This document shows, piece by piece, positions 4,161 to 47,019 of a stretch of DNA of 64,000 nt (its first letter is position 1; the number at the start of each line of letters is the position of its first letter). The stretch spans positions 675,173-739,172 of the forward strand of contig NW_004457712.1 in NCBI RefSeq assembly GCF_000313135.1. Reading direction: 5' to 3'. A program made the position numbers and the translations under genes. This stretch comes from Acanthamoeba castellanii str. Neff. Taxonomy: Eukaryota; Discosea; Longamoebia; Acanthamoebidae. The notes beneath the pieces are model-generated. The model was not told the origin of the DNA, made no database searches, and saw only the letters and a list, made by a program, of their open reading frames with translations.

Positions 4161-5163
4161 ATGCAACAGGGCGCAGGGGGCAGAGTGCAGGAGGTGCCGG
4201 AGGAAGAGGAGGGCGACTGGGTAGTGGACTTGCAGGAGCTGTTCAGGCGCTTCGACCGCCGCTTCTTCCATTCGCGGCTGGCTGCTCGTGTGCAGGTGAG
4301 CTGGAGCAGCACCTTGCGAAGGTCTCGCCCCCTTCCTTCCTGCCTTCCTCTCTCCTACTTGTTTCGCTTTGCCCCTTTCTCAACAATGAGAGGACATAGA
4401 GAGACGGGCGAATGCGTAGTGCGATCGAGGCGGGAAGGCGGTGGGGTGTTTGTGAACCTTAGCGAGCCCATACTGCAGTACCGTTCCAAATCGGACATCA
4501 TCGACGCTCTCTTGGTAGCCGTCCTCCTTCCATCTGATTCATCTCTTGGTGCTGACTTATGTGTCGTGTGTGTGGCGGTTGTGCGTGTCGTGCGGCGTGT
4601 TGTGGCTCTACATGAACATGCAGCATGAGATGATCCACGCCTACCTGTATGTCACCCGTGACAAGGACTGGACAGGGCACGGCCCGTCCTTCCTCAACCT
4701 CTCCCAGTACGTTCTCTCTCTCCCAACTGCGGCCACCATGCAATAGCGAATGTAATGACTGCCCACTTACACACGCACCACAGAGCAATCAACAAGTCCG
4801 AGGGAACCAACGTCCAGCCGTACCACCACTTCAGGGAGGAGGTCGAATTCCTAAAGGACACCAGCAACCACAGGTCGATGCCAAGGACCTCCTCGCCGAA
4901 GGTCCCTGCCGCTCCACCAGGAGGTTACCTTCTCCTCCCACCTGGGCCACGCATCATTCCTTGGCTGACTATTAGCTTGTGTTGTTGTTGTATGTGATGT
5001 GCCTCTGTGCGCAGGTAGGACACTACACCAGTACTTCGCAGTGGCCAGGCAAAAGCTCGATGACAAGACCGCCTCAGATGATAAACAGACCAACAGCGCT
5101 GCTCAGGGCGGCCCGAAGGCGGACGAGAGCAAAAGAAAAGAAAAGAAAAAAGAAGAAAATTAA
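4161..5163 (+). CDS. SPRTN: Spartan-like SprT-domain metalloprotease
   Basis: Predicted DNA-dependent zinc metalloprotease of the Spartan/SprT family, which degrades DNA-protein crosslinks in the nucleus. Exon 1 encodes VVDLQELFRRFDRRFF, matching the first SprT helix. After an intron come GECVVRSRREGGGVFVNLSE and PILQYRSKSDIIDALL; the next junction (donor at about 4515, acceptor before 4624) yields the catalytic helix HEMIHAYLYVTRDKDWTGHG with HExxH and downstream His. NKSEGTNVQPYHHFREEVEF follows. The zinc ribbon that normally follows is not clearly visible; exons between about 4870 and 5010 are uncertain. The last exon ends in a Lys-rich tail with stop at 5161-5163, only 17 bases before the next ATG on the same strand. 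Peptidase assignment is strong; C-terminal structure is tentative. Confidence 0.82.
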
Positions 5164-21821: not shown

Positions 21822-23471
21822 CTAGTAGGGCATGGTCTCGGCAAAGTTCCACAACCTGATGGACCCATCTTCATCCGCGGAGACAACCTTCTTCTCGTCG
21901 AATTGCACATCGTTCACCGCGCTGGTGTGTCCCTTCAGGTCGAAAAGGAACCTTGTGTGCATTGGGGATTGATCACATCAGCATTGCAAGAAACGAGAAC
22001 ACACACGCGCGAAGAGGAGCTGGTGAGCGTACTGTCTAGTCTTGGCATTCCACACCTTCACTGTGTGGTCGGTGCTGGCCGACACGATGCGTTGACCTTG
22101 CAGCTGCAACGCGTTGATCCGTCCTGTACACAGACACAGCCAAAAGGAGCAAGCCCATTAGCACCCCTCGAAACACCATAGAGAGCAGGAGAGTAGCGAA
22201 CCTTTGTGTTGCGTCAACGTGCAGAGCGACTGATGCGACCGGATATCCCACAAGCGGAGGGTCCTGTCGTAGGACCCCGACGCAATCATAGTGTCATCGA
22301 ACCGCACAGCGGTGACGATGTTCTACAATTCAAAACGGGGGACCAAGGAGCTCCTGCAGAGTCAGTCAAAACAGACCAACATCGCCATGGTGGCTGAATG
22401 AGCGCGCAAGTACGAACCGAGTGGCCGTAGAGATGGCGATGACACTTGCCCGTCCTGAGGTCCCACAACCTGATGTAGTTATCAGCGTAGCCGCAGACCA
22501 GCTTGCTGTTCTCGACCTGCAACGAAAGGCACACCGAGTTGCCTCTGTGCAGTGGTGGGTGGGTGGGTGGTGCGGAGCGTGAGTTGGAGTGGAGTGAGCA
22601 CAGGGTGGAGGAAGTTCACTCACGTGACGGTGTGGACGATCTGGCCGGTGTTCATGTCCCACACGCGCCCGGTAAGATCCCAAGAGCGGGTCATCAGGTG
22701 GTGGCCCGCGAACTGAAGGCACGTGATCGCGCCTCGATGGCCGGCCAGCGTGAGCTCGCACTCCTGCGCGCCCGACAGCCCGCGCCAGATCTTGACCGTG
22801 TTGTCCTTGGAGCCGGTGACCAGCACGTTGTCCTGCATCTGCATGCAGGTCACCGTCTGGGTGTGTCCGCGCAGCGTCTGCAGGGGCCGACCATCTTCCA
22901 CCGCGCGCACGTAAACCGCGCCGTCGGTCGAGCCAGCCGCGTACTTTTCGTTGTCGAAGCGCACGCACTCGAGCGACTCGCCCTCGCTGCGGGCGTGGAT
23001 GTCGAGCTTCGACTGCCCCATCACGCGGCCGTCGAGCCAGTTGCGGCGTGTGATGTACTTGTTCTTCCACGACCGCCACCCGGCGATCTGCTCGTGGTCA
23101 CTTGCTGCGCCGTTGGCCTGCCTGCGCCTGAGCCTTTGGCTTCGCGCTCGTCTGGCCGCGACGGCAGCTGATGACGACGACGACGACGAGGAGGCCGAGT
23201 CGTTGGTAAAGGCCCTCGCCCTCGACGTGACGGGGCTGAAGGAGGATGGGCTCCAGCGAGCCTTGTAGAGAGGTTTCCACAGGGAGTCGTCCTCGGAGAT
23301 GTTGTTCCAATGCTTACACGTTTGGCTGATGTGGAGGAGGTCCTTCATGTTGAGGTAGGCGAAGATGAGGAGAGCGATTTCGTTGGGGATCAGCTGGAAG
23401 TCGGACGCCAACACTCTGCCCGAAGCCGTAAGGCCGCCCCTGGCCTCGAGCTCTTCTTCTTGCCTCGACAT
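21822..23471 (-). CDS. F-box / WD40-repeat protein
   Basis: Predicted substrate receptor of an SCF ubiquitin ligase. The F-box is at residues about 25-70 (FQLIPNEIALLIFAYLNMKD and CKHWNNISEDDSLWKPLYKA). A Ser-rich and Arg-rich linker follows, then about seven WD40 blades: YAAGSTDGAVYVRAVEDGRP, TGSKDNTVKIWRGLSGAQEC, LMTRSWDLTGRVWDMNTGQI, VCGYADNYIRLWDLRTGKCH, ASGSYDRTLRLWDIR, a TDHTVKVWNAKT blade and a last blade VVSADEDGSIRLWNFAETMP. Four or more introns separate single blades. Stop at 21822-21824. Only about 100 bases separate it from the MORN gene downstream on the same strand. Family firm; the substrate cannot be predicted. Confidence 0.9.
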
Positions 23472-23804
23472 CCTCAGTTGACTCTTCTACACGTCTTACT
23501 GGTGTCCAGAGAGTCGTAATAATTAAATAATACAGAAAAATGTTTGCAAGATACTGACCGGATGACGATAAAGGGTGGAACTATGCAGGACAGAACGTTG
23601 CAGAATCTTGCAGATCCCACCCCAGCGCCAGTTGTTTTCGGACCAGAGGGCGAAAATGAATTTCCATGTCACGTCATTTTTTTCAACCATTTTCTCTTTG
23701 CCACGTCACAAGGCACCTTACGCTGGCTGAGCGGATCCACGCGCCACGTCCATCATTCAACGCGAGCAACACCAGCAACGATAGCGAACGGCAATCAAAC
23801 ACAG
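23472..23804. promoter_or_regulatory. Divergent promoter region, F-box/WD40 and GET3
   Basis: About 330 bases between divergent start codons. An in-frame ATG upstream of the GET3 start (about 23562) would add a leader without similarity to the family, so I treat this part as 5' UTR and promoter. Confidence 0.5.
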
Positions 23805-37970: not shown

Positions 37971-39749
37971 TTACTGGTAGCCAGCGAAGCCCTGGGCGAA
38001 TCCCATAGAGGAGGCGCCGGCGCCGGGAGCTGGGGCGTGCTGCGAGCCCTTGGAGAAGGTCACGCGCAGGTGGTGGTCGTGGAGCTGGGCGTTGTGCGTG
38101 TAGAGCAGTGCCTCGATACCCTCCGTCGTGGAGGCCATCTCGACGTGACCCATACGCCTGTCCTTACTGCTTGGTCAAAAGATGAAAAGGAGGTGAGAAT
38201 GGAAAATCATTAATAAAATCATAAATCAAATCGTGTGGGGGAAAAAAATCAAAGATGAGAAGGAGGGAAGCGTACGCGAAGAATCTGAAAGAGAGGACGC
38301 GACCGTATTGAGCAAAAAGATTCTTGATGTCCTCTTCGGAGGCGGAGGCGGGGATGTTGGAGACGTGGAGAACGGAGCCGGGAGGGAAGATGTGCTGGAA
38401 GTTCTTGCTGCCGGCGACCTTGAAGCGATGGAGGGGCGAGCCGGTGTAGTCTTTCGTGAGGTGGGCGCCCTCGGTGCCCTCGCGCGGCATCGCGATCGTG
38501 TTGTGCTTGGAGAAGTTGATCGTGAGCGTGCGGCCGAAGAGGGGGGCCTGGTTGAGATTGGCCAGCGCAGTCTCGGCCTGCTGAGGCGTGGCGAACTGGA
38601 CGAGGGCCGTGTCGGTCTTGTTGTACAAAATCTTGACTCGGAGGACATCGCCGTAGACGCCGAAGAGGGTGAAGAGGACGTCGGGCGTCACGCGCTCGGC
38701 CTCGAGGCCGTTGACGATGAGCACCGACGGCCCCATGCCCATCGCCATTCCGACGGCACCCTGCTTCTGGCCGTAGCCAAATGCGGCGGGGCTGACGTGG
38801 TAGCCGCCGTAGGAGGCGTCGGGGAAGAGGCCGAGGCCGAGGGGGTTGAGGGCACCGCCGAATTGGCCGACGGCGGGGCCGGCGGCATCACCCGAGGGCA
38901 GGTTGTTGTTGGTGAAGTCTCGGCTCTTGTCGTTGTTGTACTTGACGTTGAGCGAGGGCAGGTTGGAGTACTGGATGCGGAGGGTGCAGCAGCCGCTGTA
39001 GATGTTCTGGCCGTCGAGGGCCTGCTTGGCCGCCTGGGCCTGATTCTTGTCGCCCATCTGGATGAGGGCCTGGAAGCCCTTCTTCGAGAAGATGACGATC
39101 TTGTGGATGGCGCCGTACTTCGAGAAGACCTGGTGGAGGATGTCGATCGTGACCGGATAGACGAGATTGGTCACCGTCACGAGCAGGATGTGATTCGACT
39201 GCTCATCGCCAGTGGCCGTGTTCACCGCCTGATGCTGCGAGTACTGGAAGTAGACCGGCTTGCCGCGGATGTTGACCTGCGCCTGCGAGTAGCACTGGAC
39301 CAGCGCGCTTGCGCTCTGCACGTCCTGCATCTGCACGAAGCCCTGGGTCTTGCCCTTGAGCAGCAGCACCTTCTCGACGCGGCCGAACGGGCAGGCGATC
39401 GTCACCAGCTCCTGCTCGGTACAGTCCATCGGGAGATTGCGCACATGGAGCACCGACGAGGGACCTGAGGGCGGATCCGACTTGGGCTTCTTCCGCAGGC
39501 TCTGCTCGGCGCTTCCATCGTAGTTGAACTGGTCCTGAGTTCTTTTGTTTTGAGAAAGGTCGCCAGAGAAGCTTTGATGAGGAAAAGGGAGAAAGGAATA
39601 AGATCGGCAGAAGGCAGAAATCAACGGGGTGGGCGATGGGAGATAGGCAATGGATAGGGGGGAAGAGAGTATGCAGAAAGGATAGACAGAGGAGACAGAA
39701 AGATCACGATGGTCACGAGAAGGGGATAGGAGCAGTACTCGTTGATCAT
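37971..39749 (-). CDS. Polypyrimidine-tract-binding protein (four RRMs)
   Basis: RNA-binding splicing regulator of the PTB/hnRNP-L family. An 11-base first exon (39749-39739, ATGATCAACGA) splices over a 197-base intron to 39541, giving MINETQDQFNYDGSAEQSLR; no other ATG fits. RRM1 is SVLHVRNLPMDCTEQELVTI with TQGFVQMQDVQSASALVQCY; RRM2 is VTNLVYPVTIDILHQVFSKY with GFQALIQMGDKNQAQAAKQA; RRM3 is SVLIVNGLEAERVTPDVLFT with TDTALVQFATPQQAETALAN; RRM4 is SVLHVSNIPASASEEDIKNL, interrupted by an intron and resumed at KDRRMGHVEMASTTEGIEAL. It ends SMGFAQGFAGYQ. The order and spacing of four RRMs match PTB. Predominantly nuclear; it shares a divergent promoter region with the Drosha-like gene. Confidence 0.92.
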
Positions 39750-40104
39750 TTTGAAGTTGATGGACAGAGGTAGGGGTAGATTGAATGGATGAAGTTGAAG
39801 GAAGAGTAGATCGAGTGGGGGAGGACGGAGTAGTCGGTAGAGAGCCGAAGATCGAGCGAAGATGGGAGGGGGGTGGAGGAGGGATGGGAAGCAGGGATCC
39901 GAAAGGGGGCGTGGGCGAAGCGGAGCGGACGCGGGAAAAAAGTAAAAATGTTTTGATTCGCGCCACGGAAGTCCGTTACGCTCTTCGGCCATTGGTACTC
40001 GCATTTTCGCCACCTTTTCATCTATGCAACAAAAGAAAATAAAAATAAATTCTTGTTTCACACTTATTTTTATTTTATTTTACGCATTTTCAGGACTGAA
40101 AAAG
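39750..40104. promoter_or_regulatory. Divergent promoter region, PTB and Drosha-like gene
   Basis: 355 bases between the two ATGs. An AT-rich stretch ending TTTTACGCATTTTCAG (about 40092) just before GACTGAAAAAGATG looks like a 5'-UTR intron acceptor of the Drosha-like gene. Confidence 0.5.
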
Positions 40105-43100
40105 ATGAGCAAACGGTGCTGGGGCGAGCAGCGCGACGTGCAGTCACCAGAAGGAGCCAGCAGTTCGGGCGACCGGTTGCAGCGTCGGAGGCCTAATAAT
40201 GATTCACCCCAACCAGATTCGACGACGCGTGAGCGAAGTGCGGACTCTGGGCGTGGGCGTGACAGGGCCCGGGACAACGACACGCGCAGGCATGGTACCG
40301 GCAGCAGGCATGAGAGCGACTACGACCACCGCGACCAGAAGCGGCACCACTCCTCCCCAACCTCACGCTCGTCTTGTTCTACTTCCACTTCGTCGTCTTC
40401 TTCTTCTTCTTCTTCACGTTACACACCACTTTCGTCCTTCTCCTCCTCCTCCTCCTCTTCGGCTTTCTCTACATCGTCGCGATCGGTTGATGCCGTTCGA
40501 CGCGACTGGCGACACATGCAGGACGCAAGCCATCATCATACACGCGACGGCCCGCAGCCGCGCAGCCGCTCCGAGCCGTCCGCCGCCGCCACGGAGCGCT
40601 ACGCGTTCCCGCACGAGCCGTCCCGCGTCCCCAGGTGCTGCAACCACGCTCGGTTGCGCCTGCACGCCTACCGCATCGTCGTCCGACCAGTCTCTTCTGC
40701 GTCGCCAGCGGGCGGCAAGCCGACGGTGCTGGTGGATCGACGCGACGACGCCGGCGCGCGCAGCTACACGTTCGATGGCTTCACGCTGCTGTCGCACGAG
40801 CCCATCGAGCTCAGCGCACTGCCGCGGCTGCTCATCCAGGGTCCGGCCGAGCAGGGCGCCACCACCACCAGCGGAGGCGGCCGCAGCGAATACCACGCGC
40901 ACCTCGAGCCGGAGGTCGAAGACGAGTTTGACCTTGATCGACTGCTGCGCGGCGAAGGCGGCGGAAACGATGACGGGATCGACGCGCTCGACTGGTTCCA
41001 CACCTTCTTCTTCGGGGCGGTCCTGCAGCTCGACGATTTTCTCGACTACACGGCCGCGGGCGGCTGCCGGCGATTCCACCTCTTCCCGCGGTTCGTGAGC
41101 ACCGAACCACCGACGCGGCTGATGAGCGCTGTCGGCCTGCGGCGCTGTATCACCGAGAGCCGGGTCAGCGCGCTCGAGCTCATACGGAGCATGTCCAGCC
41201 GCAGTGGGAGGTTGGGTGCGCCCCGCTCGGTGCTTGCCGCCTTCTCACGCAATGAGGCGGTACTAAAATGAGGACCGATCGCAGGGAGGAGGCGATCAGC
41301 GAGCGGCTGGTGGACCACATACTCCTGGTGGTCGATGGTACCGCGTTTCGCGCCGACGATGTCGATTTCTCAGAATCGCCCGCTATTCGATTCAACTCGC
41401 CCACCAAGGGGGTACACCACCAATCCGCAATCGCCCCGTGTTGGTGTAACATATTTACAATATGGCAATCGACATATTTGCATGCTAACACATCAGTGTC
41501 GTGCGCGAGCAGCGGCTTTCCTATCGACGGCACTGGGACGAAGAGCTGGGCGTCTCGGTGACGGACGACCAGCCGCTCATCCACCATTACCAGACCTACA
41601 CAGACTCCGCTCCACACATTACCGTGCGCGCAGACTCCAAGCGATATCGGTACGTCGTTGCATGTCCGTGTGCGGTGGTGCGTGTGCGATAGTGCGCGGT
41701 GTGTGTTGTGCGCGCCCCCGTATCAGAATCTTTATTGTCGCTCTATCCAGAGACAAAAGGAACACGCAATCAGCCCCTGCGGCGGTCGCACTCGACGTCC
41801 ATCCGCCCACGGGCTTCCACCTGCGCCGCGGGAAATGGCAGAAGCAGCCGCCCGAGGGCCACAACGCGACCCTTATTCGCCTCGTCCCCGAACTCTGCGA
41901 CTGGACGCCACTTACCGCCCACATATGTCACGTAAGCACACGCGTGTCGTGCGTGTGTGTTGTGTGTCGTGTGCGTCTGTGTCGTGTCGTTGATCGCTCA
42001 CGCTCCACGGGATCGACTTTTCAGGTGGGTTCCCTTTTGCCGGGCGTGATTCACCACATCAGGTTCTCGGCTTCGCTGAGCGCGTTTGAACTGATCCTGC
42101 CCGCACCCTTCAGCGACAAAGAGCTCCTCAAGAAGGCACCTCCCCCTCTTCCCCCAGGGACCGCGGCTCTCACGCGCTCGACATTTCTAACCGCACACAA
42201 CACACACGACACACGACACGCGCCTCACGACACGCGCACAGGCGATCACGCATTCGTCGTACGCACAGTTCGTGAATGGCGGCGGAGTCGGGCATGTGCT
42301 CAATACGGTCGCGAGCCGAGTGGGCCGTCGCCGCCGTCGCCGGGAGGAAGGCGCGCATCGGCGCTGTGCGTCGCCCGGAGCGGGCGCCATCGCCCCGCGC
42401 GAGGGCGAAGTGCACCTCCCCAGCGTCATCCAGTACAGTCCCATCGAACACAACCAGCGCCTCGAGTACCTGGGCGACGCCGTCCTCGAGTTCATCTGCA
42501 GCGCCCACCTCTTTACTCAGGTCACCGCCGCACGACACACGCACCACCGCACACACACACAGCACACGCGCTGATGGTCTCTCTTTGTGTCGACACAGTT
42601 GCCGCAGCACGACGAGGGACCGCTGTCGCAGTATCGGTCGGGGCTCGTCAACAACCGGTTTCTGGCGTACCTCACCCAGAGACTGCATCTCGACGAACAG
42701 CTGTGCTACGCCGACGTGGCCGAGCTGACCCAAGGCGGCAAAGAAGGCAGGCGGAACATGCTCGCCGACTCCTTCGAGGCGCTCATTGGTTCGTTCAGTG
42801 TCGTGTGTCGTGTGTCGTGTGTCGTGTGTCGTGTGTCGTGTGTCGTGTGTCGACTGATCGGCGGAACGTGTCGCGCAGGAGCGCTATATCTCGACCAGGG
42901 GCTGGAGGCGTGCCGCGAGTTCTTCGCCGGCTGTTTGTTTTCGGAGTCCGAGGCCGACCTCCGCCGCATGTGGCTTCAACCTTGCGCCCACCCGCTACAG
43001 GTACTTGTGGGTGTGTGCGCGTGTGCGTAGGGATCACGTGACACGACAAACACGGCAAACACGCGCACACGCGCACACGCGCACTCACACGACAGGAAGG

Positions 43101-44401
43101 ACCATCGGATCGGCATCTCATTGAGGCATCGCCCATCATGAAGGGCTACACCAAGCTCGAGGAGCAAACCGGCATCGAGTTCAAGCACATTCGGTTACTC
43201 GTGCAGGTCAGCGTCACCCACAATTATTTGTTTTATTGCATTTATTACCATAAAATAATTGTTACCATTTAAATATATTAATATAAATAATATTATTTAT
43301 ATTTATTGCGTCTATTTATTTGCTGACGTGTTGGGTCCAGGCCTTCACGCACTCGTCTCTGACCGACGACTGCGACACGCTCAAGCTGGGCACCAGCCAG
43401 CGCCTCGAGTTCTTGGGCGACGCCGTGCTGCAGTACGTCGTGACCGCCTGTCTCTACGCCCACTACCCCGACCAAAACGAGGGCCAACTCACGGTACACC
43501 CCGCTCTTCCTCCTCCGCCATATTCGACAGCTCGCCACTTGGGCGCCACTCACTTCGGCTCTCTCCCACTCTCACTCTCTCTCTCTCTCGTGTGTCGTGT
43601 GTTGTGTGCGTGTCGTGTGTGGCGTGCGTGTCGTGCGTATGTTTGCACGTGCGGACAGCAATACCGAGTTGCGCTGGTGAACAACCAAGTGCTGGGGCGC
43701 ATCGGAAAGGACCTGGGCTTCGGGCCCTTCATCCGCTACCTGCCGAGCACCAAGGAGCAGACCGGCGTCACCGACAGCATGATCGCCGACTGCGTCGAGG
43801 GTGCCCGCACCACACCGTCTCCACCGTTTCCCCCCTTGGGCCTCCTCTCTCACCCTGCACGCCTGTGTCGTGTGCGGTATGCGTGTGTGTCGTGTCGTGT
43901 CGTGCGTTGTGTGCAGCGTTCATTGGTGCGCTGTTCCTGGAAAAGGGCCTGGAGGTGGTCGAGGCGTTCGTGCGCGTGGTGTTCCTCCCGCGTCTTGAGG
44001 ACATGCTCGCCACCCGGCAGTACCTCGACCCCAAGTCCCGCCTCTCCCAGCGCCACCGATCAGCTCCCCCCACCTACACGTACGCCTGCGCTTCCCCTCC
44101 CCCCAATCGATCTCTTCCCATGCAATGCCCTCGTCTCACCCTCAATTCAATCGTGCTGTGTGCGGGTCGGGGCAGGTTGCTGAGCGAAACGGGACCGGCG
44201 CACATGCGTAAGTTCGTGGTGGGGGTCACGGTGCGTGGCCGGCTCAAGGGCAAGGGCAGCGGCTACACCCGCGTCAGCGCCGAACAGAGTACGCCGCGCC
44301 ATCGTTTCATTCATTCATTCATGCGTTCATTCATTCATTTATGGTGTTGGGTGTTGCTGGTTTGTACAGATGCGGCCAACGACGCGCTTAGCCGGGACTG
44401 A
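40105..44401 (+). CDS. DROSHA: Drosha-type class II RNase III
   Basis: Predicted double-domain RNase III that cleaves hairpin precursors. The N-terminus is Arg/Ser/Asp-rich (an RS-like region, then poly-Ser). The central domain carries Drosha-type blocks: RSYTFDGFTLLSHEP (40759-40803), LDWFHTFFFGAVLQLDDFLD and RRFHLFPRFV (41068-41097). A PAZ-like part follows with LIRLVPELCDW (near 41880) and LLPGVIHHIRFSASLSAFEL. RNase IIIa: AITHSSYAQF, HNQRLEYLGDAVLEF (about 42449-42493), YRSGLVNNRFLAYLTQRLHL, DSFEALIGALYLDQGLE. A Drosha-like connector, DRHLIEASPIMKGYTKLEEQ, joins RNase IIIb: SQRLEFLGDAVLQYV (43395-43439), ADCVEAFIGALFLEKGLEVV and LDPKSRLSQ. The dsRBD is ARMKF-like (HMRKFVVGVTVRGRLKGKGS) ending DALSRD. 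Acidic catalytic residues are present in both domains. No helicase is encoded upstream, unlike Dicer. At least ten introns, one apparently GC-AG near 42139-42240. Confidence 0.9.
42798..42852. repeat. (GTGTC)n intron tract in the Drosha-like gene
   Basis: GTGTCGTGTGTCGT simple repeat between exons encoding DSFEALIG and ALYLDQGLE of RNase IIIa. Confidence 0.8.
43210..43338. other. AT-rich intron within the RNase IIIb region
   Basis: Roughly 130 bases composed mostly of A and T between IRLLVQ and AFTHSSL, in sharp contrast to the GC-rich exons on both sides. No coding signal. Confidence 0.7.
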
Positions 44402-44635: not shown

Positions 44636-45571
44636 TTAGGAACTGGGTGAAGAGGAAGAGGATGGAGATGAAGAGGAAGAGGAAGAGGAAGCTGGTGTGT
44701 CGCTGGAAGGAGAAGAAGACAGAACAGGCGCGGAGGACGAGGAAGAAGAGGACGAAGATGTAGAGGAGGAGGAGGAGGAGGACGTTGAGAGTGAAGGTGA
44801 TGGAGATGAAGAGGAGCCAGGCGTCGTCGAGTCCGAGCGGCTCTGTGGCCAGTCCCACTTGAGCGGCTTCACCCGGAACTGCGGCGGCGGCAGCACGACG
44901 GCGGACATCGTCGGCGGTGGCGGCGAAGGGAAAGAGAGGGGAGACGGTGAAGTGGACGATGATGATGAAGTGGAGGAGGACGGAAGGAGCGAGCGAAGTG
45001 GAGGGAAGGGCAGCGGAACGACATTCTTGGTGTGGGCGAGCTCGATGAGGAACTCGCGCGGTGGCGGCTGCGTGAAGGAGTAGTTGACGCGCGACTGGAT
45101 GGCCAGACGTACGTCGTCGAGGTCGAGCACGGACGCCTTGCCGGCGTGGTTGGCGTAGATGGCGGCGTCTTCGAGCACCTCGCGCACGTAGCGGTGCATG
45201 AACTCGAGCAGCTGCGGGATGACACGGCCCTCGACCTCGTCGATTCCCATCGATTTGAGGATCTGCGCGATGATCTTGGCATCGTTGGGCAGATCGCCAG
45301 ACTTGACCACCTCGTCCATGAGCTGGCCGTGATGTTGAGGCTGATGATGGCCATTCGCATGCGCTGCAGAGCCCTTTCGCTTGGAGGCCGCCCCGGCTGA
45401 AGATGAAGACGAGGAGGAGGGATTGTGGTGCGTCGCTGACGATGTGGAAAGGGAGAGGGAAGGGGGGGCTAGTGCATTTTTGACACCGGCAAGCGCGTTC
45501 GATTTCGATCCAGCTGGATCGGGGCCGGCAGACGTAGTGTCGAATGCTGTCTTCGTTGCCGTTCCATTCAT
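44636..45571 (-). CDS. TAF9: TAF9, TFIID/SAGA histone-fold subunit
   Basis: 311 residues, no intron. The core (about residues 85-200) contains [60 protein letters not shown] and [20 protein letters not shown], the TAF9 histone fold with its PPPRDFL-type extension, then [12 protein letters not shown] and YRLKSL-equivalent [10 protein letters not shown]. It pairs with TAF6 in TFIID and SAGA. The N-terminal 80 residues are Ser/Ala-rich and the C-terminal 80 almost entirely Ser/Pro, encoded by a purine-rich minus-to-plus asymmetric tract (44636-44800). Divergent with RRP41, 197 bases between start codons. Confidence 0.93.
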
Positions 45572-45768
45572 GGCTGCCCTCCCTTGAATAATGAGAATGC
45601 GCCCTCGAAATCAACACAACAAAATGGTCTGCGTCGAAATCCCCAAAAATCACCTTTTCTTCATTCATTTTTTGGCGCCAACGCAAATTGGCCGGAGAAA
45701 ATGAGTGAGAAAATAGAAGATCAGCGGGCAGTGAGAAGTTCAATTGGAGTTGAAGGAGGCGAAGCACG

Positions 45769-47019
45769 ATGTCCAAGTTCGAGTTTGTGTCGCCCGAGGG
45801 GCTGCGCATGGATGGCCGACGACCGGGCGAGCTGCGTCGGATAGAGGCCAAGATGGGCGTGGTGAGCAAGGCAGATGGCTCCGCGCTCTTCCGGCAGGGC
45901 AACACGCAAGTCCTGGCCACCATTTACGGACCAAAGGAGGTATGCAAGCACAAGTTCATTCTTAAATTGCATCAAATCATTTCTAATCTCGCCCCATTAA
46001 CTACAATCGCTGCAGCCTGAGGAAAAATCTCGGACATTGCACGATCGTGCCATCATACAGTGCGAGTACAGCATCGTACGTGATCTTGCCACCCCTTGTC
46101 GCGCTGTACGTCCGCCTTGACATACTGGTTCATCTCACTTTCTCTGCTTGGTGCTACCCAAGGCTGGCTTTGCCAGTGGCGAGCGCAAGAGCAAGAAGAC
46201 AGACAAGTACGTGTTGACCACCCTTCTTGCTCTGTGCGCAACTCTTGGGCAGTTGCAGTAGCTGTCCCTTGTCGCTTCACTTGAAGTGCACGGTCTCACC
46301 TTCGTTTCGCGTTCGCTTTCTCTTTCTCTTTCTCTCATTAGAAAAACTGTGGAGCTGGGCATGCTCATTCGACAGACGTTCGAATCGGTGGTGATGACCG
46401 CCCTCTACCCTCGTTCACAGATCGATATCTATGTCCAGGTCCTCCAGTCAGACGGCGGTTCGTTCATGTCCCTTCGCCCTCATGAATTCATTGCATTATG
46501 GGTGCTTGATGCAACTCTGACATGAGCGCTCATCATCATCGTCGTTGTCATCTGTTATGCTTTTTGGATCTATCCCACTAGGCGCGCTGAGCGCGGCCAT
46601 CAACGCCACGACGCTGGCGATGATAGATGCCGGTGTGCCAATGCGTGACTTCATCACATCATGCTCTGCCGCCTTCATCTCTGGCACACCTCTCCTCGGT
46701 ATCCTCTCCGCCCTTCATCACCCCGCCAGCGTTCATGGCGTTCACTTCATTCATCATCTCATTGTTTCTCTCTCTCTCTGCAGATCCCAACTTTGTGGAG
46801 AACACGGCAGGCGGGCCAGAGCTGCTGGTGGCGATCGAGCCCAAGAGCCAGCTGGTGGTGTCGATGGAGATGGAGAGCAAGCTGCCCATGGAGATGTACG
46901 AGCGGGTCGCCAAGCTGGCCATCGACGGCTGCAACCTTATCTACCGAGTGCTCACCGACGAGGTGCGCGACTACACGCTCCAGCTGTACCAGGCCAGATC
47001 CGGTATCGGCAGCGCTTGA
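45769..47019 (+). CDS. RRP41: Exosome core subunit RRP41 (EXOSC4)
   Basis: RNase PH-like ring subunit of the RNA exosome, nuclear and cytoplasmic. MSKFEFVSPEGLRMDGRRPG and ELRRIEAKMGVVSKADGSAL open the fold, followed by QGNTQVLATIYGPKE. Further exons give SRTLHDRAIIQCEYSI, GFASGERKSKK, ELGMLIRQTFESVVMTALYP, RSQIDIYVQVLQSDGG, ALSAAINATTLAMIDAGVPM and FITSCSAAFISGTPLL. The last exon (ENTAGGPELLVAIEPKSQLV) ends RSGIGSA, stop 47017-47019. Six introns. All conserved RRP41 blocks are present; eukaryotic RRP41 is a structural ring member without phosphorolytic activity. Confidence 0.93.

Follow-up and report, generated by a model that had tools for sequence, protein, structure and literature searches.

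We identified a gene for a Drosha-type RNase III in a 64,000-nucleotide (nt) stretch of the Acanthamoeba castellanii str. Neff genome (contig NW_004457712.1, positions 675,173 to 739,172; here called the window), and its sequence makes it very probably orthologous to animal Drosha in the broad sense. We consider it likely that the encoded enzyme is kin to animal Drosha by descent, without transfer from animals, and makes the first cut in hairpin precursors. In the PDB, human Drosha constructs take the first five places among the sequence matches of the protein, with up to 306 bits (E value, 3e-90). A bacterial RNase III follows with 100 bits, and the highest-scoring Dicer reaches 83 bits.

As the original prediction proposed, the protein carries two catalytic RNase III domains and a double-stranded RNA-binding domain (dsRBD). 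PF00636 matched two stretches of the spliced protein (168 bits), and PF00035 matched its C terminus (39 bits). All eight catalytic acids are conserved, with the pattern E, D, D, E in both RNase III domain a (RIIIDa; E629, D633, D704, and E707) and RNase III domain b (RIIIDb; E811, D815, D883, and E886). Family scans of the spliced protein (a 993-amino-acid [aa] initial model) and of P0001, a database protein identical to our splice model at 851/851 residues, found no helicase family at an E value of ≤1, in line with the claimed absence of a helicase, and the scan of the spliced protein found no Dicer dimerization domain. RIIIDa contains an insertion of 66 aa, which compares with 65, 65, and 97 aa in three animal Droshas (macaque, 65) and 77 aa in the homolog P0002, whereas at about the same place RIIIDb of P0001, P0002, P0003, and P0030 has only 14 to 16 aa (the macaque RIIIDb gap of 9 was not used because that isoform has an insert there). 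The motif DRHLIEASPIMKGYTKLEE was found between the two RNase III domains, where a Drosha-like connector had been claimed, and the linker aligns with those of human, Branchiostoma, and Nematostella Droshas and with P0002. The claim of an RS-rich N terminus stood only for composition (45 S and 29 R within 180 aa), as RS/SR dipeptides are not enriched over that composition (11 versus a shuffle mean of 14.4). The N terminus of human Drosha is described as S/R-rich (PMC4894637; cited articles are represented throughout by passages of their text).

Based on motifs, profile scores, and predicted structure, the central domain is Drosha-like, as had been claimed. The window protein has YTFDGF where animals mostly have YxFEGF, and RFHLFPRF where human Drosha has RFHFMPRF; the forms YxF[DE]GF and FHxxPRF are common to the rows of alignment A1 (56 rows, comprising P0001, P0002, 40 animal sequences, and 14 oomycete sequences). 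We built a hidden Markov model (HMM) of the central domain from 36 of the 40 animal rows, the others having <380 aa before RIIIDa. This animal-only HMM scored 49.1 bits in P0001, 122.7 bits in P0002, and 8.9 to 55.1 bits in 14/14 oomycete proteins. The highest score among 900 shuffled sequences (made from P0001, P0002, and the oomycete protein P0128) was 2.0 bits, and by these scores we reject chance motifs as an explanation of the likeness. The Dicer P0117 scored 0.6 bits, and the other two Dicers scored lower and were not among the best 60 matches listed. The match in P0001 (residues 29 to 98 and 155 to 198) covers the platform part and not the PAZ part, and that in P0002 spans residues 257 to 569; a protein search with the central domain of P0002 alone returned only P0002 itself. 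The central domain of the predicted structure was also Drosha-like (Foldseek, VIA), in a model whose alignment included animal sequences.

Window residues C178, H231, C321, and H325 align with the human Drosha zinc ligands that we take to be C561, H609, C676, and H680 (the macaque row is offset by 31 at all four positions). Both the window protein and P0002 have all four ligands of this site. Its ligands occur in 37, 37, 36, and 36 of the 40 animal rows, respectively, and the oomycete rows have a gap at the first position and the ligand in 10, 13, and 14 of 14 rows at the others. The other zinc site, presumably C536/C538/H549 in human numbering, is present in 39/40 animal rows (three ligands checked, not the fourth) and is absent, by alignment columns, from the window protein and P0002.

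Phylogenies of the RNase III domains placed the window gene on the Drosha side and not with Dicers or bacterial RNase III, in agreement with the proposed Drosha-type identity. In a tree of 78 single domains (137 columns only; SH-like approximate likelihood ratio test support), the window RIIIDa grouped with animal Drosha RIIIDa (89) and the window RIIIDb with animal Drosha RIIIDb (93), both falling outside the clade of animal sequences (99 and 96, respectively). Oomycete RIIIDa sided with Drosha RIIIDa (82), and oomycete RIIIDb did not group with Drosha RIIIDb; the four bacterial rows were not on one side of any branch. A concatenated tree (34 rows, 280 columns) united the amoeba with animals (96/90; animals alone, 100/99) and separated amoeba, animals, and oomycetes from Dicers (96/88). 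Amoeba and animals stayed together (91/88) in a 32-row tree from which two Dicer rows with long branches, the Dicer on contig C161 and P0118, had been removed. Of 155 homologs, the trees drew on 26 sequences of Drosha type and on 6 from Dicers or bacterial RNase III; 56 entered A1, and 19 entered alignment A2. The RIIIDa insertion was removed from Drosha-type rows before tree building, and DCL3, DCL4, and mammalian Dicer were excluded from the concatenated trees because their RIIIDa is too short. We regard the placement on the Drosha rather than the Dicer side as moderately supported by the tree alone and as strongly supported once the central domain, insertion, and linker are added.

Nesting of the amoeba within animals was rejected by the approximately unbiased test (p-AU, 0.0034; 32 rows, with the amoeba constrained to group with all animals except Nematostella), and we therefore hold firmly that the window gene is not from animals. 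As third acid of RIIIDa, P0001, P0002, and 14/14 oomycete rows carry D and 40/40 animal rows carry N, an independent sign of nonanimal origin. These two results together ruled out transfer from an animal to the amoeba, and a bacterial-type RNase III was ruled out by the two RNase III domains and the central domain. The original prediction held that an ortholog here would imply either an older Drosha/Dicer split or transfer; transfer from animals falls away, and the central domain shared by oomycete proteins means that the split may be very old.

Traces of a PAZ domain distinguish the amoeba protein further. The Pfam PAZ family scored 47.5 bits in P0002, over the cutoff of 28.8, and 12.7 bits in P0001, under it, and it gave no match at an E value of ≤1 in macaque Drosha or oomycete P0128. 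The P0002 stretch matched the PIWIL2 PAZ at an E value of 2e-9; scored alone against that domain, P0002 reached 40.1 bits and P0001 reached 22.0 bits. The same comparison gave 1.9 bits or less for three animal Droshas and two oomycete proteins, 1.4 bits or less for the three animal Drosha equivalents of the PAZ part, and at most 6.8 bits among the 1,583 shuffles reported of 2,100 made. Based on the Pfam and PIWIL2 scores, PAZ is clearly retained in P0002, appears to be weakly retained in the window protein, and is unreadable in the animal Droshas tested. P0001 residues 263 to 358, which make up much of the PAZ part, have a predicted local distance difference test score of <50 in the predicted model, which therefore adds nothing on the PAZ question. 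Having no PAZ is described in print as a hallmark of Drosha (PMC4791657), and PAZ traces in an amoeba Drosha suggest that the enzyme is older than animals.

The genome searched (38.4 Mb, 250 contigs) also encodes candidates for the rest of a small RNA pathway. Further RNase III matches lie on contigs C229, C161, and C124, the last with one match. The C229 locus has a helicase-like frame (by eye) and a Dicer dimerization domain. The C161 locus (G000:C161:445042-448903; L009) is a second Dicer-like gene, in which dsRBD pieces precede PAZ and a pair of RNase III domains; we noticed no helicase there, and its branch in the trees is long. All PF00035 matches in the genome fall within RNase III genes, bar one 18-residue piece on C124. 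We also found two Argonaute loci on C44, an RNA-dependent RNA polymerase on C94, and exportin-5 on C148.

Taken alone, a role as the first hairpin cutter is probable. The central domain (platform plus PAZ-like part) would hold the hairpin stem, the two RNase III domains would fold into one intramolecular catalytic center, and the two strands would be cut about 2 nt apart, after which one of the two Dicer-like enzymes would complete the small RNA for one of the Argonautes. We infer the nuclear location, the hairpin substrate, the order of steps, and a double-stranded RNA-binding partner in place of DGCR8. Several caveats apply. A grouping of the amoeba with Dicers had p values of 0.029 and 0.17 in two data sets, the latter being the 32-row set, in which a grouping with oomycetes had a p value of 0.18. 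The trees were built without dictyostelid Drn, ichthyosporean Drosha, or fungal Rnt1 sequences, and the microRNA (miRNA) pathway in this organism is itself a prediction. The human DGCR8 core had no genome match in a search that was weak: as a control, macaque Drosha finds the window locus at an E value of 2.4e-5 only, because the genome was searched exon by exon, and the missing DGCR8 match therefore does not show absence. ERH (PF01133) also had no genome match, which is uninformative given the exon splitting.

One alternative is that the protein is a Dicer lacking a helicase and produces small RNAs unaided, using its PAZ to measure from the 3′ end of the RNA, so that the likeness to Drosha reflects shared ancestry only. 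The PAZ traces of the window protein and the clear PAZ of P0002 would fit such an enzyme, as would the amoeba-Dicer clade that survives testing in one data set, and Dictyostelium offers a precedent in its helicase-less Dicer-like proteins, of which DrnB makes miRNAs (PMC4894637, PMC11014262). We nevertheless consider this quite unlikely: the Drosha match stands at 306 bits against 83 for Dicer, the Drosha-type insertion, linker, zinc site, and central domain are all present, and two other Dicer-like genes could fill the role, one of them with the helicase-like frame and dimerization domain. It is also unlikely that the enzyme has no miRNA role and processes structural RNA (pre-rRNA, small nucleolar RNA, or mRNA hairpins); on this view, Drosha-type enzymes would have begun as general nuclear hairpin cutters. 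Few Acanthamoeba miRNAs are reported (PMC11014262) while the gene is intact, and the weak search gave no DGCR8 match, both of which suit a structural-RNA processor. Nothing speaks directly against it, but the genome has Argonautes and an exportin-5 homolog, and miRNAs are reported in the genus. This alternative overlaps with the hairpin-cutter explanation that we prefer, and the probabilities given to the readings need not total one.

We give very little credence to acquisition of the gene from an animal or to assembly contamination, an origin in keeping with the statement that Drosha-like enzymes are animal-only (PMC4894637, 2016). The rejected nesting in animals, the D in place of the N of all animal rows, the PAZ traces, the absence of one zinc site, the 13 introns, the ordinary protein families in 7/10 neighboring frames scanned, and the identity with P0001 all argue against it.

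The claimed gene coordinates were right, with an ATG at 40105 and a stop codon at 44399-44401 (Table 1). Twelve introns are GT-AG and one is GC-AG, the GC donor belonging to intron 5 (42136-42241). The P0001 entry (99% match to the gene product; 10 member sequences and 11 contigs, the longest of 4,206 bases) derives either from spliced RNA or from a DNA gene predictor, and the GC-AG intron favors RNA. P0001 starts at Met138, and the 137 aa before it, like the start codon, are supported by the open frame alone. The G+C content of the window is 55 to 65% per 2-kb block. By eye, short GTGTCGT/ACACGAC repeats occur within the introns of the gene (e.g., 42799-42855) and also within those of the C229 Dicer gene (L008 near 4400-4780).

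Table 1. Features of the Drosha-type RNase III gene and of neighboring genes, in window positions
Feature	Position	Strand	Basis or remark
Drosha-type RNase III gene	40105..44401	+	14 exons, 988 aa; splice model = P0001
Exons 1-7	40105-41210, 41285-41411, 41513-41649, 41751-41931, 42025-42135, 42242-42520, 42599-42788	+	
Exons 8-14	42879-43000, 43096-43206, 43341-43493, 43659-43800, 43917-44079, 44176-44288, 44370-44401	+	
Low-complexity N terminus rich in S, R, and H, aa 1-149	40105..40551	+	Open frame, composition; start codon putative
Central domain, platform part, aa 174-331	40624..41097	+	Animal-only HMM, 49 bits; zinc-ligand columns
Central domain, PAZ part, aa 357-506	41173..41898	+	Interrupted by introns 41211-41284, 41412-41512, and 41650-41750
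RIIIDa, aa 543-731	42100..42940	+	PF00636, alignment columns, trees
Drosha-type RIIIDa insertion, 66 aa	42260..42457	+	Between THSS and RLEYLGD; six-arginine run inside
Drosha-type linker, aa 732-774	42941..43164	+	Contains HPLQEGPSDRHLIEASPIMKGYTKLEE; alignments to animal Droshas and P0002
RIIIDb, aa 777-915	43171..44002	+	PF00636, alignment columns
C-terminal dsRBD, aa 925-988	44030..44398	+	PF00035, 39 bits (cutoff, 23)
RRM protein	38167-39975	-	PTB-like by eye
TFIID 31-kDa subunit	44636-45610	-	
RNase PH-type exosome subunit	45754-46020	+	
F-box/WD40 protein	22623-23486	-	

The case for an origin of animal miRNA biogenesis within animals and their nearest unicellular relatives has leaned in large part on Drosha. 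A nonanimal Drosha-type enzyme that still shows traces of PAZ connects Dicer and Drosha at the sequence level. We offer tentatively, as a single reading that falls somewhat short of probable, that the window gene and above all P0002 would be the least altered forms of an ancient enzyme, that animals would have lost a readable PAZ, swapped one catalytic acid, and gained the second zinc site, and that the oomycete “DCL2” would be the same enzyme. If so, nuclear hairpin cropping would be ancestral and the animal miRNA pathway its elaboration, not an animal invention. The host organism probably has miRNAs and is culturable, and the age of two-step miRNA processing becomes directly testable.

We found no claim of a Drosha ortholog in Amoebozoa in the passages of the open-license literature searched. 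Relative to that literature, we add a test of orthology, evidence for the central domain and the zinc site beyond animals, the D/N contrast of the amoeba protein, and the retention of PAZ. Ichthyosporean Drosha and Pasha have been reported (via PMC8061703). For Acanthamoeba, the passages of PMC11014262 (2024) report one miRNA in A. castellanii, five in A. lenticulata, and a Dicer duplication, and they name Drosha only once, in a reference. The best A. castellanii match of human Drosha is listed in a 2026 review as ACA1_291000 (2e-78, 40% identity; PMC13315211), which is probably the window gene or a sister-species copy, although the published model has 805 aa versus 988 aa here. ACA1_291000 was also the best Dicer match (5e-12), and in the passages of that article, no DGCR8 is reported, Dicer or Drosha function is left open, and no phylogeny or orthology claim appears.

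The oomycete proteins P0113 and P0121 to P0153, probably the published oomycete DCL2, share with the window protein the lack of a helicase, two RNase III domains, the RIIIDa insertion, and the central domain, and human Drosha was the top Foldseek match of an oomycete-only model of P0128. Oomycete DCL2 has been placed near Drosha or called Drosha-like (PMC4791657, PMC10080066, PMC12857978); the oomycete proteins here differ from the window protein in a RIIIDb that stands apart from Drosha RIIIDb in the single-domain tree and in a PAZ that is unreadable in the two proteins tested. In one oomycete member, P0122 from Aphanomyces astaci, both RNase III domains are missing several catalytic acids, and the protein may be inactive or its gene model faulty. 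Another two-domain layout was seen by eye in P0115 (582 aa), which has the order RNase III, dsRBD-like, RNase III, dsRBD. Dictyostelium DrnA and DrnB, compared by description (PMC4894637, PMC11014262), are likewise amoebozoan and helicase-less; their layout has been likened to that of Drosha (PMC4894637), and DrnB is required for miRNAs (PMC4894637, PMC11014262). Their dsRBD is N-terminal, whereas that of the window protein is C-terminal, and it is the C161 locus that has the Drn order.

With canonical Dicers, the window protein shares two RNase III domains, a dsRBD, and a putative PAZ region, but it has neither helicase nor dimerization domain, and its similarity to them is lower. Unlike animal Drosha, whose RIIIDa is published with an NxxE motif (PMC4791657), the window protein has Asp rather than Asn as the third RIIIDa acid. 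It also differs in missing zinc ligands C536/C538/H549, in its readable PAZ traces, and in having no DGCR8 found in the weak genome search. It shares with animal Drosha (human DROSHA; PDB entries 5b16, 6v5b, 6lxd, and 9asm) the lack of a helicase, the zinc site C561/H609/C676/H680, 35% identity with macaque Drosha across 530 aligned columns in the RNase III part, and the order of central domain, RIIIDa with insertion, linker, RIIIDb, and dsRBD.

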